Position numbers and translations under genes: made by a program. From positions 1 to 26,383 of IMG/VR virus record IMGVR_UViG_3300013120_000241: a stretch of 26,383 nucleotides of DNA, one strand, 5' to 3'. This DNA comes from a virus. This document shows positions 4,618 through 26,383 of the stretch, piece by piece (position 1 is the stretch's first letter; the number at the start of each line of letters is the position of its first letter). The notes below the pieces were generated by a model. The model searched no databases. It was not told the DNA's origin and saw only the letters and a program-made list of their open reading frames with translations.

Positions 4618-4978
4618 AAGTAAAAACTTTAAAAGAAAAGAAGAAAACCCTTATAATTTTCCGCCTTATGATAGGTCTATAAGTAAAGTAGTGAATGAAT
4701 GTACTCATAAACATAACCCTATTAAAGGTAAACCAATTGCTTATGGTGGCCGTATTGACCATGATACTAGATGTAAAAAAGGATCTCCAGCCAAAGCAAA
4801 AATATACTTTGTAAAAGGAATTGGAGAAGTAAGAGGATTAAAAGGTCTTAGCAAAGTAATTAGAATGCAATACAAGACAGTCGAGTATTATGCTCAAAGA
4901 ATACAAGAAAAAAAAGGAAAGTATTATAAATTTGAAAATAGTTTAGGCCATAAACTTCAAATAAAATTAATAAAATAG
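4598..4978 (+). CDS. hypothetical basic protein with a possible DNA-binding helix pair
   Basis: A 126-aa, strongly basic protein. The middle contains NECTHKHNPIKGKPIAYGG and HDTRCKKGSPAKAK, with several Cys and His residues that could hold a metal, though no standard finger spacing is clear. The C-terminal part (GLKGLSKVIRMQYKTVEYYAQRIQ) resembles a helix-turn-helix, as in small DNA-binding modules. Nucleic-acid binding is therefore a reasonable guess and no more. It overlaps the preceding gene by 20 nt and is followed 3 nt later by a very small ORF. Confidence 0.6.
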   Translation: MTLQEIRSKNFKRKEENPYNFPPYDRSISKVVNECTHKHNPIKGKPIAYGGRIDHDTRCKKGSPAKAKIYFVKGIGEVRGLKGLSKVIRMQYKTVEYYAQRIQEKKGKYYKFENSLGHKLQIKLIK

Positions 4979-4981
4979 CTT

Positions 4982-5044
4982 ATGAGAGTTTTAAGTTTAA
5001 TCATAGTAAAATTGATAGGGAAAATTTTTAAAAGAAAGAAGTAA
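4982..5044 (+). CDS. possible 20-aa hydrophobic/basic peptide
   Basis: The peptide MRVLSLIIVKLIGKIFKRKK is a hydrophobic run followed by a basic end, the shape of a small membrane-binding peptide. It is retained because its stop overlaps the next start as TAATG and it starts 3 nt after the previous stop, fitting the junctions of this operon. At this length chance cannot be excluded. Confidence 0.35.
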   Translation: MRVLSLIIVKLIGKIFKRKK

Positions 5045-6894: not shown

Positions 6895-6924
6895 GGAGTA
6901 GTTTAAAAGCTACTCCTTTTTTTT
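6895..6924 (+). terminator. intrinsic terminator of the rightward early operon
   Basis: GGAGTAG (6895-6901) pairs with CTACTCC (6910-6916) around an 8-nt loop and is followed by eight T (6917-6924). It lies between the convergent early and late operons. The T run ends on the stop codon of the endolysin gene on the other strand. Confidence 0.88.
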
Positions 6925-7360
6925 ATGGATTGAATGTGTCAAACTTATCTGTCATAACATCAAGATGAACCCAATTGACTTTATTCTCATACCTAAATGG
7001 ATATGGTGCGTTATCCTTTTTATCCTTTAACCAATCCCTAACCTCTTGAGCTGTCATTCCTTTTACATCAAAATCAACTGCCATGCCTAACACATGTGCT
7101 GATAAGTAAGTTTGATTGTTAAGTACTTTTGACTTTACAATATTACATGTGTTTTCTCTTAACCCACGCTGAGAAAAAGCACCACCAAAAGACCAATTAT
7201 TTACCGTTATAGGTTTGTTTAATGTCACCCTTACCCATAACAATAACTCTAACAGTCTAGGATCAAAAAAAAGCCAAGATCTTTCTTCTCCATACTTCCA
7301 AAGGACTTGTTTACTTACAAGCTCCTCTATTTTAAAATATTCTTTTAATTTGTCTCTCAT
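6923..7360 (-). CDS. endolysin, peptidase M15 family
   Basis: A 145-aa single-domain protein. The zinc site of M15 peptidases is visible: H89 and D96 in YLSAHVLGMAVDFDV, and H132 in NWVHLDV. N-terminal segments FFDPRLLELLLWVRVTLNKPITVNNW and GGAFSQRGLR also fit the family. Such enzymes cut peptide stems or cross-links in peptidoglycan, releasing phage at the end of infection. There is no signal peptide, so export would depend on a holin. Its ATG overlaps the stop of the upstream small gene as ATGA. It is the last gene of the leftward late region, near candidate holin and spanin genes. Confidence 0.9.
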   Translation of the reverse strand: MRDKLKEYFKIEELVSKQVLWKYGEERSWLFFDPRLLELLLWVRVTLNKPITVNNWSFGGAFSQRGLRENTCNIVKSKVLNNQTYLSAHVLGMAVDFDVKGMTAQEVRDWLKDKKDNAPYPFRYENKVNWVHLDVMTDKFDTFNP

Positions 7361-20498: not shown

Positions 20499-21819
20499 CT
20501 TCAAAAGGAATATTTACAAGTGAACGACCTAGAATGTTATCTCTTTCGTATATCGGTAAATCTGCTAATTCGTCATCTAAAGCACCATCACCGGTCAACT
20601 TCTCTCTAATCTCATTAGTAGTATATTCAGTCTTAAATGGCTGTAAACTCTTGGCTTGTTCCATTCTGTATTGTTGGATTTCTGGAATCTCAGAGTAATT
20701 AAGCTTTAAATAAGCACCCTGCCTAACTAAATCTTGATACATCGCTACAAGCTTATTATTTAAGTGCTCTACAAGCTTTTCATAGAAAGGTATACATGAT
20801 GTTAAGTAAAGATCTTGACGGGCTGTACGCATGTTATTGTATGAGCTGTTTTCCTTTTGTCCTAACAATAAAGGATCAATATTCACAATATTACACACAC
20901 TCGTAAGAGTTAGCTTTTCACTGTCAAACAACTGCATATCTACAAGATTCATTCCTACAGCCTGCCATTTAAGAGGAATAGAAGTGAACATAACATCTCC
21001 AACGTTTTCAATACCTTGATATTGCCTATTGAAATCATCCTTTAAATTAGTCAGCATTTCTTTGGGTATTGCAGGTGCATCCTCTTTAACGGTTGCAGGA
21101 TCAGCAGTAAACATGCCGCGCAAACCGCCGCTTTCTAGTAACTTAATTGCTGCTGTTTGTGTTCCGTTATTCAATCTTAACTTACGTGACAAAGGTCGCA
21201 TTGGTGACATTCCCGTATATAAATCAGCGTCCTGTTCATAAGATAATGAAGGTGCTGTAACATGTATCATGTCCTCAACTGAGGCAGGGTAAGTAGTTGT
21301 ATTTAATTCAAGCTCATATCCCTTTAATTCAGGTGTATAGATTGCACCCGAATAGTTATCGGTAAGCACTGATACATATTGAGAAGGAAATACATACAAA
21401 TTAGTTGGCTCACTTGTATTATCAAACCTTTCAGTATACAAGTAGAAATTACCCGTCATGTAGAAATAACCGCAATATTGGTCAATAATATCTGACCATG
21501 TTTGACGTGAATTAGGCTTTTTAAGTAGATCTAATAAAGGATGTGATTCTATCTTATTGCCTTCTCTATCACAAAGTTCCAACTTAATACGGTTTAATGC
21601 ATCTGATTTCTTATTGATCGGTGCGTAAACAGTATCTAAATCATTATACCCATATCGAATAAACTGCCTTGAATCTGTTACATCTTGAATCTTAATGTAT
21701 GCACCATCTACCCAAGTGTAAACCTGTTTATTATTCAATACTAAACCTCCGTCTGATTTTTCAGGGAGTACTATTGACTTTTTTTTATGTCTTGTTATAT
21801 CAAAACCAAATATTTTCAT
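20491..21819 (-). CDS. portal protein
   Basis: A 442-aa HK97-family portal protein, the dodecameric DNA channel at one capsid vertex. Characteristic stretches are DQYCGYFYMTGNFYLYTERF, EDMIHVTAPSLSYEQDADLYTGMSP, RKLRLNNGTQTAAIKLLESGG and a stem/crown region (SVCNIVNIDPLLLGQKENSS, MRTARQDLYLTSCIPFYEKL). The length is normal for the family. The start overlaps the large terminase stop as TAATG. Confidence 0.9.
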   Translation of the reverse strand: MKIFGFDITRHKKKSIVLPEKSDGGLVLNNKQVYTWVDGAYIKIQDVTDSRQFIRYGYNDLDTVYAPINKKSDALNRIKLELCDREGNKIESHPLLDLLKKPNSRQTWSDIIDQYCGYFYMTGNFYLYTERFDNTSEPTNLYVFPSQYVSVLTDNYSGAIYTPELKGYELELNTTTYPASVEDMIHVTAPSLSYEQDADLYTGMSPMRPLSRKLRLNNGTQTAAIKLLESGGLRGMFTADPATVKEDAPAIPKEMLTNLKDDFNRQYQGIENVGDVMFTSIPLKWQAVGMNLVDMQLFDSEKLTLTSVCNIVNIDPLLLGQKENSSYNNMRTARQDLYLTSCIPFYEKLVEHLNNKLVAMYQDLVRQGAYLKLNYSEIPEIQQYRMEQAKSLQPFKTEYTTNEIREKLTGDGALDDELADLPIYERDNILGRSLVNIPFEDE

Positions 21820-23036
21820 TATGCGTATGAATATGTTTTTTTCTTATTTAATAAATCCGTGCAAATGTACCTCAATGCATCTAAAGCGTGATTGTAATCA
21901 TCAATAGGAGTACTTGATTTCTTGTCATGCCAAATGTAATTATTTAACTCTTTACCTATGTCAGTGCTTTCACTATCTACTATAAGCTTATAGTTTCTAA
22001 TTACATCAATACCACCCGTAATACTACCTGCACCCTTTTTACATGCCTTTATATTATGCCCTTTGTTTTTAAGCTCCTTTATTAGTCTTGGCTCTGCACT
22101 ATCAGCAACAATTAACTTATCCTTGCAGATGTTTAACTCAGTGCTTATTTGATCCGTTGTAAGAGAAAGTTTATAAGTATGCAACCTCACATAAATAACT
22201 TTCTTCTTCTTACTTATACTCACCTCAACAAGTGCAGTAGGATCAATGCTAAACCCAAAATCCAAACCAAAGCCATGAAGCGTACTTTCTTCAAATTTAC
22301 CATACTCCCAATTGTTATAAATAACGCCCTCAGCTCTTTCAATCCAACCACCTAATACTTTATGTTTGTACTTACTTGGATTAGTTCTTTTAATCTCTTC
22401 AATGTTTTGTATAAAGCTATTAGAAAGGTTTTTAAAGTTGTCTCTATAATCAGTATGTATGTATGCGACATTTCCAACAATACCATTAAAACCACCTGTT
22501 ATACCTTTGCTCTCAAAGAACCTGGTATATATCCAATGGTCTTTATTCGTTGGATTCAAGACCAATAATATAATATTAATCTTATCCTTGTCCCTGAATG
22601 ACAAATCCAATGTATCAAATTCCTCTTCATTATGACTTTCTTCTGCCTCTTCTAATACAAATATGTTTACACCTTTTAGTGATTTTAGTTTAGCTGTTTG
22701 GTTTCCTGAAGAAGTTTTAATGCCTCTAAACTTAATAACACTATTATTATGTGTAAACTCAATATCATTCTTAGTAATATTTGCAATACTTTCAGCTCCT
22801 AACTTTTCAATCTTATCTTTAAATTCTGGAATGATTGAATCATCTGCTGATTTCAATGTATATCTAGTGAATAAGATACCATGATTTTCACGCAAAAGTA
22901 GATCACATAAAAGAGTGTTAACACCAAATGATTTACCTGAACCCCTGCCACCTGTACATACTACATACCTAACGTTTTCATGTTTACCATGAAGAACCTC
23001 AGCAAGTGTTTGATATGGTGTAGGAATGCTAATCAT
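21819..23036 (-). CDS. terL: terminase large subunit
   Basis: A 405-aa packaging ATPase and nuclease. Walker A is GGRGSGKS (residues 29-36), Walker B and catalytic Glu are in NIFVLEEAEE (124-133), and the coupling motif region is LLVLNPTNKDHW. The RNase H-like nuclease has acidic residues in GLDFGFSIDPTALV (D259), VADSAEP (D312) and IDDYNHALDALRY (D380 or D386). The length is typical. It overlaps the small subunit by 8 nt and couples to the portal by TAATG. Confidence 0.93.
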   Translation of the reverse strand: MISIPTPYQTLAEVLHGKHENVRYVVCTGGRGSGKSFGVNTLLCDLLLRENHGILFTRYTLKSADDSIIPEFKDKIEKLGAESIANITKNDIEFTHNNSVIKFRGIKTSSGNQTAKLKSLKGVNIFVLEEAEESHNEEEFDTLDLSFRDKDKINIILLVLNPTNKDHWIYTRFFESKGITGGFNGIVGNVAYIHTDYRDNFKNLSNSFIQNIEEIKRTNPSKYKHKVLGGWIERAEGVIYNNWEYGKFEESTLHGFGLDFGFSIDPTALVEVSISKKKKVIYVRLHTYKLSLTTDQISTELNICKDKLIVADSAEPRLIKELKNKGHNIKACKKGAGSITGGIDVIRNYKLIVDSESTDIGKELNNYIWHDKKSSTPIDDYNHALDALRYICTDLLNKKKTYSYA

Positions 23037-23415
23037 CTATTTCTTTTGCATTATCATTAAACTGAATAGGAGTAATATTAATCTTTTCCCCCTTGCTTGT
23101 ATGGTCTACATACTGCCCGTTCAATGCTCTCAATTCGTCCTCATTACCTAACAGCTTATAAAGAGCTAATCTTTCAGCAGTAGCACCATTTTTAAACTCT
23201 TTCCTTAATTCTCTTTTAATCCTACTTGCATTTTGTCGTAAAACTTTTTTAAAGTATTTTGATTCTTTTGAATCTACTGGGAAATGTCTATAGAATGTTT
23301 CACTAGATATACCCAATTCATCCATGACCTCATACATGTTTACAACATCATTGTTTATAGGTAGATCTAAAAAGTGTTTTGCTTCCTCATATAGTTTTTC
23401 TTTATCATATGCCAT
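23029..23415 (-). CDS. terS: terminase small subunit
   Basis: A 128-aa protein. The N-terminal part (VVNMYEVMDELGISSETFYRHF, residues about 24-45) is a helix-turn-helix suited to binding packaging-site DNA. A basic central helix (NASRIKRELRKEFKNGATAERLALYKLLGN) provides the oligomerisation region and the C-terminus is polar. Identification rests on position directly before the large terminase, size and HTH. A terminator-like element ends about 20 nt before its start. Confidence 0.75.
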   Translation of the reverse strand: MAYDKEKLYEEAKHFLDLPINNDVVNMYEVMDELGISSETFYRHFPVDSKESKYFKKVLRQNASRIKRELRKEFKNGATAERLALYKLLGNEDELRALNGQYVDHTSKGEKINITPIQFNDNAKEIDD

Positions 23416-23524: not shown

Positions 23525-23550
23525 ACCACTCCTGTTAGGTCAGGAGTGGT
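23525..23550. terminator. 10-bp hairpin after the SPFH lipoprotein gene
   Basis: ACCACTCCTG (23525-23534) and CAGGAGTGGT (23541-23550) pair perfectly around a 6-nt loop, 8 nt past the lipoprotein stop. A T-rich tract follows on the plus side only, so on the minus strand it is a strong stem without a U run, perhaps stabilising the 3' end. Confidence 0.65.
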
Positions 23551-23558
23551 ATTTTGTT

Positions 23559-24431
23559 TTATTTAAGATTCATTATTAACCCTCCATTAGATCCGGAAAC
23601 TTGGGGGAGTTTACCGTCCCATTTTTCAAGCTTTTTATATTCAACTAATGTAGTAGTAAGAGATTTAGAAAGTTTTTTGTTTGCTTCTGCTTGTGCTTCT
23701 GCTTTTGTTGTTACAGTATAAGCGTAAGCGTCGGCCTCAATTCTGCTTTTTTGTGCTTGTGCTTCCGCTTCGACACTATCTTTCTTTTGTTGAGCGATTG
23801 ACATTTGTAATTCGTTTTCCCTTTGTTGTGCTTTTTGTGTTGCTTCAATCTTTGCGTTTAAAGCTTTAGTGATAGATTGAGGTACTGATATTTTACCAAT
23901 TAAATAAATATCAGTTACAGTTATAAATTTCTCATTTGCTTTATTTACAATTAACTCTTTTACTTCTTTAATAAATTGAGTCTTACCAGTTCCATAAATC
24001 TGTTGTACATCTCTAGTTGAGCCTGCTCTATTAAATGCATCTCTCGTTGCGTTTCTTAATACTTTGTTAGTTATTTCATCTACACCTTTTTTGTACATCT
24101 GAAAAACCTTAACTACATTTTCTTCTTTAATCACATATTCAATACCAATAGAAGCTCCTAATTCAAGGCCGTTCATTGATTGAAATGAGAAAGAATCGTC
24201 ACCTTCAGAGCCTTCTCTGTTATCTCTAGTCCATACTTTATTTTGTCTAAAAGTAGGGAAAATATAAAGATACTCATTAGCTCCTACCCAATACCTACCT
24301 GGGCCGACAACTTTCTCTTGTACTCCTTTGTCTGCGTAAAGATTAAACAGCACCCCTACTTCGCCATTTTCTACAGTTGAACAAGAAAATAAAGACAAGG
24401 AAATTAACGACATTAATAATAAATTTTTCAT
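23559..24431 (-). CDS. SPFH/band 7 (prohibitin-like) lipoprotein
   Basis: A 290-aa protein. Residues 1-17 are a lipoprotein signal with lipobox LFSC (Cys17). An SPFH/PHB domain follows (about 22-200): VENGEVGVLFNLYADKGVQ, VGPGRYWVGANEYLYIFPTF, LGASIGIEYVIKEENVVKVF and ITVTDIYLIGKISVP. Then comes a coiled coil (QKAQQRENELQMSIAQQKK, EAEAQAQKSRIEADAYAY) and the prohibitin-type end EKWDGKLPQVSGS. SPFH proteins form large rings or cages on membranes and can bind FtsH-type proteases. Here the lipid would anchor it outside the cytoplasm. Phage roles are not settled; superinfection exclusion or envelope protection is a guess. It is coupled to the two-TM gene by ATGA. Confidence 0.88.
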   Translation of the reverse strand: MKNLLLMSLISLSLFSCSTVENGEVGVLFNLYADKGVQEKVVGPGRYWVGANEYLYIFPTFRQNKVWTRDNREGSEGDDSFSFQSMNGLELGASIGIEYVIKEENVVKVFQMYKKGVDEITNKVLRNATRDAFNRAGSTRDVQQIYGTGKTQFIKEVKELIVNKANEKFITVTDIYLIGKISVPQSITKALNAKIEATQKAQQRENELQMSIAQQKKDSVEAEAQAQKSRIEADAYAYTVTTKAEAQAEANKKLSKSLTTTLVEYKKLEKWDGKLPQVSGSNGGLIMNLK

Positions 24432-24592
24432 TTTAACAGTTTTTTTATTGTATATAATATAATTGAAATTGAAACAAAAACACTTAAAAAGATAAGTGCA
24501 TAATCACCTGAGTTAAAAACAATTGGCATTGCTAAACCAAACACGAAAATATATAAAACTATAATAAGTGATAAGTATATAGATTTTTTCAT
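24428..24592 (-). CDS. two-TM membrane microprotein
   Basis: A 54-aa ORF with two hydrophobic segments: YLSLIIVLYIFVFGLAMPIVF (about residues 6-26, split here only by length) and YALIFLSVFVSISIILYTI (31-49), with a short NSGD turn between and Lys at both ends. Both termini are therefore predicted to be cytoplasmic. Its stop overlaps the SPFH lipoprotein start as ATGA, so the two are likely partners in the membrane. A 21-codon ORF ends 4 nt before its ATG. A small holin-like or exclusion protein is possible; no family is recognised. Confidence 0.65.
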   Translation of the reverse strand: MKKSIYLSLIIVLYIFVFGLAMPIVFNSGDYALIFLSVFVSISIILYTIKKLLK

Positions 24593-24596
24593 ATCC

Positions 24597-24662
24597 TTAT
24601 AAAATGGAGAAACCTTTACTCATATACAGGCTCTCACATCCATATACAAATAAAGGCTTCAT
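24597..24662 (-). CDS. 21-aa ORF, possible leader peptide
   Basis: The peptide starts MKPLFVYGCESL and ends YMSKGFSIL. Its stop lies 4 nt before the ATG of the two-TM gene, close enough for coupled translation. Codons 9-11 (Cys-Glu-Ser) are exactly one arm (TGTGAGAGC) of a 9-bp inverted repeat whose other arm lies just upstream of the ORF. It may be a leader peptide that controls RNA folding, or a true microprotein; chance occurrence is also possible. Confidence 0.4.
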   Translation of the reverse strand: MKPLFVYGCESLYMSKGFSIL

Positions 24663-24697
24663 ATTATTAATTAATCATGTGTGAGAGCGATTAATTA
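24630..24697 (-). promoter_or_regulatory. structured leader with two interlocking 9-bp inverted repeats
   Basis: GCTCTCACA (24630-24638) is complementary to TGTGAGAGC (24680-24688). TAATTAATC (24668-24676) is complementary to GATTAATTA (24689-24697). The second pair forms a hairpin whose loop contains one arm of the first, so the pairings are mutually exclusive or form a pseudoknot. There is also a direct repeat CATATACA at 24621 and 24641. The region precedes the two-TM/SPFH genes and looks like a regulatory switch; no known riboswitch class is recognised. Confidence 0.5.
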
Positions 24698-25242: not shown

Positions 25243-26383
25243 TTAAGGCACATCATTAACGATGTTCGCAACTGTCATGTTGAACATTGAGAAATTTGTT
25301 GAGCCTATTGAATCTAGTAATATTGGGTATGTGTCACCGTCACCCATACGCCACCAATTTACTGGTGATGTTGCAAGTGTTGATAAATCAAACGGTACAC
25401 CACCGTTGTAAATGTCTGATACGTTTGCACTTTGGTCTGAATCAAATACGGCTAACTCGTCAATTTTTGCACCGCTTCTCATGTAGTCGTTTGAAGGTGC
25501 CCTACGTCCGATGTAAAATACATCTGAATCAATAGCAGCAGACCAACCGTAATTATTATTACTATCCGCTGTGCCTACTTGAATGCCATTTAGGAATATT
25601 TTAAACCTTGAATAGTAATTGTTAATGTCACCACTACTTGAACCCGTTGTACCTCCGTCATACGTTACGAAAATGTGAGTCCAGGACGTGTTAGACAAAG
25701 TGCTATTATTAGTTTTAAACCTTAAATAGTTGTTTTTTGATCCATATTCTAAATACAACGCCTGTTCATTACCTTTGTAATATAGCCAAATATGACCACC
25801 GTTTGAGTAGTCCCAATCGCCAAAAAAGAACAATGTTTGTTTTTGGCCTCCTGTGTAAGTTCCTCCCTTTTGCCATAATGCAATTGACCACGCATCAGAA
25901 GAACCCGAACCGTTACCCGTTCTACCTAATACAGTACTTAAAGGCGTTGGTAGAGCGTTTAAATAATCGAATGTTTGAAATGATATAGACTTGGTATTAG
26001 CAAAAGGCGGATTAGCTACATTAATAGTTAATGTTTCTGCATCCTCACCGAAATAGTTTACAGCTTTCATTGTTGGCGTATATGTCCCTGCTGTTAAACT
26101 TCCTACTAACTTACGAACATTACCCTCTACTGTTACAAGGCCACTAGGTAGATTTTCCCACTCATACCCTACACCATAATTAGCAATTAATTCATAGTTT
26201 ATTGGCTCACCTTCAACTGCATTTATTGAAGTTGTAGAAATGATTTGAGGAACTTCGCCTGCACTTGAACCCGATGCCTGAAAAATAGTGTTAAGTGCGT
26301 TTACTGTGCTTGGACCGTCTAAGCCGTAATTGAAACCATTTTCATCAATTATCGCAGTATAGTAAATGTATGTTATAATTTCA
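25243..26383 (-). CDS. Ig-like plus LamG-domain tail/receptor-binding protein (partial, cut by right edge)
   Basis: The frame stays open from the window edge to its stop at 25243, at least 380 codons. The ATG at 26070 is internal, because coding continues upstream without a break. The visible start is strand-rich (ITYIYYTAIIDENGFNYGLDG). A putative Ig-like domain of He_PIG type follows (INAVEGEPINYELIANYGVGY, LPSGLVTVEGNVRKLVGSL, GTYTPTMKAVNYFGEDAETL). The last 220 residues form a LamG/concanavalin-like fold (SDAWSIALWQKGG, TSWTHIFVTYDGGTTG, FKIFLNGIQVGTADSN, DVFYIGRRAPSNDYM, KIDELAVFDSDQSA, VNWWRMGDGDTYPILLDSIG). Such modules bind sugars on the host surface. It is followed by a terminator-like element. 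Confidence 0.8.
   Translation of the reverse strand, partial: EIITYIYYTAIIDENGFNYGLDGPSTVNALNTIFQASGSSAGEVPQIISTTSINAVEGEPINYELIANYGVGYEWENLPSGLVTVEGNVRKLVGSLTAGTYTPTMKAVNYFGEDAETLTINVANPPFANTKSISFQTFDYLNALPTPLSTVLGRTGNGSGSSDAWSIALWQKGGTYTGGQKQTLFFFGDWDYSNGGHIWLYYKGNEQALYLEYGSKNNYLRFKTNNSTLSNTSWTHIFVTYDGGTTGSSSGDINNYYSRFKIFLNGIQVGTADSNNNYGWSAAIDSDVFYIGRRAPSNDYMRSGAKIDELAVFDSDQSANVSDIYNGGVPFDLSTLATSPVNWWRMGDGDTYPILLDSIGSTNFSMFNMTVANIVNDVP

Follow-up and report, generated by a model that had tools for sequence, protein, structure and literature searches.

An SPFH lipoprotein gene and a small gene for a protein with two transmembrane (TM) segments, predicted to form a helical hairpin, probably constitute one functional module, and the pair is widespread, occurring in many phages and in some bacterial chromosomes. 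We examined the pair in a record of 26,383 bases that is linear in IMG/VR (the window, meaning the whole stretch of DNA analyzed), where both genes lie on the minus strand. The hairpin gene (24428 to 24592) encodes 54 amino acids (aa). The SPFH/Band_7 gene (23559 to 24431), recognized from its open reading frame (ORF) and profile matches, encodes 290 aa and starts on the hairpin-gene stop codon, with an ATGA overlap at 24428 to 24431. Phage SPFH lipoproteins are already known as PHROG_200; what appears to be new is the pair. The PHROG_200 entry covers the lipoprotein family alone, and the passages and abstracts seen in the open-access literature describe neither a conserved small partner nor the pair. 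Earlier reports of SPFH genes in phages described their role as poorly understood or could give no clear reason for their presence (PMC13239085, PMC7760394). A dedicated, conserved partner provides a handle on why phages carry these genes.

The first-pass annotation had proposed a complete SPFH protein with a lipobox, and profile searches confirmed it. The protein matched Pfam Band_7 (E = 1.1e-16; 61.8 bits versus a gathering cutoff of 23.6) over residues 19 to 208 (23808 to 24377) and PHROG_200, "lipoprotein" (E = 6.6e-67), over residues 5 to 287. The predicted signal peptide and the lipobox LSLFSC occupy 24381 to 24431, with the Cys at residue 17 (codon at 24381 to 24383), and a conserved W-D-G-x-L-P sequence is found toward the C terminus (residues 271 to 276; 23604 to 23621). 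All 70 proteins of our SPFH alignment (A3), the window's included, matched PHROG_200, to which the likewise anchored SPFH protein gp20 of phage N4 belongs. Scanning viral contigs with the window's protein as a single-sequence query found no relative, but a query alignment built from eight phage SPFH proteins succeeded. Among 50,697 phage records, relatives of the window's protein were present in 558, all at less than 60% identity, and N4 gp20 used as the query returned 653 phage records. Deposited phage records often name the SPFH gene transposase, serine protease, ion transporter, or peptidyl-tRNA hydrolase.

Conservation of the gene pair

Loci were fetched with the eight-protein SPFH alignment (the best 80 of 452 viral stretches and 38 genome loci), and annotated phage loci were added. 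This gave 129 loci, from which L007 and L129, without an SPFH ORF by profile, were dropped, leaving 127 SPFH ORFs. Genes were called by ORF heuristics, and the phage collection is rich in enterobacterial and staphylococcal phages. For upstream counts, 4 loci with less than 400 nt upstream were set aside, leaving 123, the window's included. In 94 of these 123 loci, a small ORF (40 to 125 aa, two hydrophobic segments) ended close to the start of the SPFH gene, whereas the same test on 300 control long ORFs from these loci gave 11; the coupling therefore exceeds chance. Co-occurrence elsewhere, on which the first-pass annotation had made its proposal partly depend, was also found in the reverse direction: an SPFH gene lay within about 60 nt in 23 of 23 phage records with a relative of N4 gp19 and in 6 of 6 with a relative of the Cyrano partner. 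The pair is exemplified by gp19-gp20 of N4.

With a partner profile trained without the window, 105 of the 127 loci had an adjacent match scoring 10 bits or more. This count is partly circular, as are all adjacency counts made with this profile, since it was trained on SPFH-adjacent ORFs. Independent checks on the pairing came from cross-validation, the reverse search from partners, and a scan of five loci. That scan found a strong partner in N4, a Salmonella phage, and a P1-like phage, weak matches only in Bacillus phage AR9, and no partner in Caulobacter phage Ccr32. When the loci were made non-redundant (80%), 68 remained, including the window's own. Of these, 52 had the partner directly upstream of the SPFH gene, 6 had it farther upstream, and 2 had it downstream; no partner was found in the other 8. 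Thirty-three of the 52 directly upstream partners overlapped the SPFH gene, 18 of them by exactly 4 nt. The 16 loci in which the partner was not directly upstream, 8 of them without a partner found, count against a single module. Besides the small partner, no neighbor family was kept in more than 6 of the 68 loci. A conserved third gene was considered and rejected, as the top neighbor clusters reached only 6 loci and one of them was an artifact, an opposite-strand frame over the SPFH region; another cluster (at most 6 loci) is presumably a ribonucleotide-reductase-like gene.

Individual loci showed variations on the arrangement. In the P1-like record MH422554 (L134), an unannotated partner ORF at 2718 to 2954 (56.0 bits) overlaps the SPFH gene, and in a Salmonella phage (L131, 2576 to 2927), the partner and SPFH genes are separated by an additional small ORF. 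One of the dropped loci (L129), from a contig titled as an archaeal metagenome-assembled genome (MAG), had a strong partner match (52.5 bits) at 4742 to 5008 beside a partial SPFH match.

The lipobox was recognized by pattern in 116 of the 127 SPFH ORFs, and a Cys occupied the anchor position in 61 of the 68 non-redundant loci. In three relatives (L003, L008, and L078), the N terminus lacks the Cys but contains a hydrophobic segment.

The pair is not confined to one phage life style. It was found near cI and integrase genes in a Pseudomonas phage, and phages of Gram-positive hosts have SPFH members. In satellite phage AH14b, an SPFH gene is reported as p02, adjoining the integrase gene p01, and an abstract on DLP5 mentions morons for membrane modification (PMC5834331). 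Genus searches gave a strong SPFH match (>400 bits) in 16 of 20 Dyella genomes and a strong match in 9 of 40 Chitinophaga genomes, with partners present in 4 of 4 Dyella loci fetched and in 6 of the 9 Chitinophaga loci. In Dyella and neighboring genera, 14 of 21 loci were flanked on one side by a gene that we take, from the ORFs at Dyella-type loci, to encode MecI and on the other by one that we take to encode NrdB. Because of this flanking, the SPFH gene in these bacteria is considered chromosomal and kept by descent. The placement of the pair among housekeeping genes on Dyella chromosomes shows that it is more than a lytic-cycle module.

The hairpin partner family

Judged by sequence, the partners belong to a single family in which the turn joining the two helices is conserved. 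Most of them (40 of 48 aligned partners) matched PHROG_1130, which includes N4 gp19 and is annotated as "membrane protein" (moron, host takeover), and the alignment contains near-invariant Pro, Ser, and Gly columns around the turn. In cross-validation over six splits, each split had 31 to 33 of 33 held-out clusters exceeding the 99th percentile of the scores of 169 two-TM decoy ORFs. Positive charges (K+R), counted in 56 of 60 partners after the 4 without the P motif were left out, averaged 1.5 per partner in the N-terminal tail, 0.45 in the loop, and 3.34 in the C-terminal tail; this distribution suggests that both tails are inside and the turn outside.

SPFH genes with co-encoded membrane partners are known from QmcA-YbbJ and SPFH-NfeD operons, in which, as here, an SPFH cage protein is accompanied by a membrane protein. 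The partner family described here had no NfeD match, and kinship with NfeD was rejected, as the Pfam matches of the 48 partners (E of 0.01) did not include NfeD. The Kayvirus pair MbpV-MbpS resembles the present one in gene order, its SPFH gene being directly preceded by the gene for a small TM protein (PMC7150955). MbpV has one TM segment and scored 8.8 bits against the partner profile, so it is probably another kind of partner. The distant Gram-positive members had other small TM proteins or weak partner matches.

The window's own 54-aa protein is very probably a divergent member of the family. The first-pass annotation had described it as a two-TM protein, and this description held: its hydrophobic segments span residues 9 to 25 and 33 to 49, and AlphaFold2 predicted a helical hairpin (pLDDT of 92). 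It keeps the usual position, size, and ATGA overlap, as well as G19 and P23 before the turn. It was also the best-scoring small ORF of the window and scored above all 169 decoys in five of six splits. An alternative, in which an ORF that is not expressed or has no kinship with the family happens to occupy the partner's position, is improbable, although several results would fit that reading. Two of the three near-invariant residues differ, with N27 where Ser is usual and S37 where Gly is usual. Its score against the family profile (window left out of training) was a weak 12.7 bits, reached by 2 of 1,970 scored shuffles and, in the remaining split, by two decoys. It did not match PHROG_1130 directly (E of 0.001) or any PHROG or Pfam family at the cutoffs used, and no relatives were found by single-sequence scan of viral contigs or by tblastn in phages. 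The family DUF6358 was tried and rejected (E = 0.059, below its cutoff).

A proposed membrane dome and its rivals

AlphaFold2 modeled the window's SPFH protein with high confidence (pLDDT of 90.6) as an SPFH domain followed by a long helix of 73 aa (residues 185 to 257; 23661 to 23879), presumed to form the dome wall (CC1). The best structural matches were prohibitin, erlin, HflC, flotillin, QmcA, HflK, and stomatin, with Z scores of about 12 to 17 (prohibitin 8rrh_B, 16.8; HflC 7vhq_G, 14.5; QmcA 8z5g_A, 12.8), and HflK, HflC, prohibitin, and QmcA were also found by profile. Whole-chain root mean square deviations (rmsd) were large and isolated SPFH domains superposed at about 2 to 3 Å, which we read as a different angle between the domain and the long helix in the model. 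In a published relation between helix length and subunit number (y = 0.1782x + 10.22; PMC12624060), the modeled 73-aa helix suggests about 23 subunits.

We propose that the SPFH protein is exported and held in the outer leaflet of the inner membrane by its lipid anchor, or by the hydrophobic segment in a few relatives. About 22 to 24 copies would form a periplasmic dome like that of HflK/C, with the hairpin protein in the membrane disc beneath and its conserved turn toward the SPFH domains, where it may be a built-in client, a plug, or a nucleus for assembly. Such a dome, shutting membrane proteins in or out, would most likely alter membrane protein quality control during infection or lysogeny. 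We give this account, the best overall explanation, a probability of roughly 40%. Two of its parts appear firmer: the SPFH and hairpin proteins probably sit in one complex, and a location in the inner membrane facing the periplasm is likewise probable. The likeliest target would be the FtsH protease system under HflK/C, with the effect that membrane proteins of the phage or lysogen are spared or those of the host eliminated.

Action on FtsH-type proteolysis is proposed only tentatively. The first-pass annotation had listed control of FtsH-like proteases among its options, and this stays plausible because of the fold kinship with HflK/C and prohibitin. FtsH is preferred because HflK/C controls it and prohibitins bind its mitochondrial counterpart (PMC2636767, PMC12048511). 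HflK/HflC share the fold and, if the lipid anchor is used, the periplasmic side. They differ from the present pair in that two SPFH genes are present rather than one SPFH gene and a hairpin, and in the lipid anchor predicted here. Moreover, scores fell far below the NCBIfam equivalog cutoffs (HflK, 25.5 versus 159.4 bits; HflC, 25.0 versus 134.4), which counts against the dome/FtsH model, and FtsH binding is therefore not to be assumed. Prohibitin, a mitochondrial complex of two paralogues, gave the best fold match and is similar in length, but no hairpin partner is encoded alongside PHB1/PHB2. The QmcA (YbbK)-YbbJ cage protrudes into the cytoplasm (PMC13086221), whereas the lipoprotein described here would be outside. 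A broader, doubtful extension is that the dome and hairpin constitute a widespread, undescribed module with which lytic and temperate phages seize or replace host HflKC control of FtsH and which Dyella-type bacteria have adopted as a resident membrane defense or quality control system.

FtsH control has two close rivals, namely, a membrane scaffold and superinfection exclusion. As a scaffold, the dome and hairpin would stiffen or organize the inner membrane under the load of phage proteins, with no protease target, and so delay leakage, protect lysogens, or tune lysis. SPFH proteins organize membranes, and occurrence in lytic phages, temperate phages, and chromosomes suits such a general role. 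In Bacillus subtilis, the SPFH protein YdjI acts together with two membrane proteins to keep PspA membrane bound (PMC8581546). The Kayvirus SPFH gene lies near endolysin and holin genes, but in the loci read the genomic position is variable and mostly away from lysis genes, and we consider a scaffold rather unlikely. Exclusion, an idea of the first-pass annotation in which an envelope assembly would block DNA entry by a second phage, draws on circumstantial evidence from the next gene upstream of the pair, which is annotated "superinfection exclusion" in N4 and Moo19; for PhiSH19, the next gene listed in a table likewise has that name. Presence in prophages and chromosomal retention in Dyella would fit resident protection. 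However, relatives of that neighbor were present in 313 phage records, P22-like ones included, and in many of these no link with the pair was apparent; we rejected the P22 gp17-like neighbor as proof of exclusion, the adjacency being limited to a few lineages. PADLOC models matched none of the 6 proteins tested, and the lack of any neighbor family in more than 6 of the 68 loci also weighs against exclusion, which we regard as unlikely.

In E. coli, Ser after the lipobox Cys usually leads to sorting to the outer membrane. Ser followed the Cys in 51 of 61 relatives, which would suit an envelope bridge, with the lipoprotein in the outer membrane, the hairpin in the inner membrane, and no single cage. 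Asp followed the Cys in 4 of 61, however. The inner membrane is preferred to the outer because the Cys-less relatives keep a hydrophobic N terminus and Gram-positive phages have members, and a bridge thus seems quite improbable. Because the pair corresponds to gp19-gp20 of N4, which grows on E. coli K-12, the complex, FtsH substrates, and superinfection are directly testable. A minimal cage of an SPFH protein and a hairpin would also provide a simple model for how SPFH domes select their contents.

Genomic surroundings in the window

The SPFH gene had been reported by the first-pass annotation to lie next to the terminase genes, in agreement with the Pfam and PHROG profiles, which place the large terminase at 21819 to 23036. 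The pair is upstream of the terminase genes, with portal and head genes following. The ORF at 23029 to 23415 is at the position of a small terminase and had only a weak helix-turn-helix (HTH)-like match. The large terminase is nearest to that of Nonlabens phage P12024S (51%), so a flavobacterial host is likely. The idea that the pair is a fixed part of the terminase region was rejected, as the 11 kb of P12024S that we examined did not contain an SPFH ORF. A terminase with 44.4% identity to the window's occurs in OQ791282.1, "Shigella phage Henu10"; the terminase of Riemerella phage PT15 has an identical value and record position, and the Henu10 record is possibly mislabeled.

Promoter-like sites were not more common than in shuffles (11 versus 10.6), and the idea of a promoter for the pair was dropped. 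An inverted repeat with 9-nt arms (24630 to 24638 and 24680 to 24688) lies upstream of the hairpin gene, and a perfect 10-bp hairpin (23525 to 23550), terminator-like and with a T-rich tail on the plus strand, lies 8 nt past the SPFH stop. The gene upstream of the pair (25243 to 26382, minus strand), which runs off the window, encodes a Laminin_G_3/ConA-like lectin domain (E = 2.2e-11), perhaps in a receptor-binding or decoration protein. Elsewhere on the minus strand are an endolysin-like gene (6923 to 7360) and an anti-repressor Ant-like gene (941 to 1705), the latter hinting at temperate ancestry.
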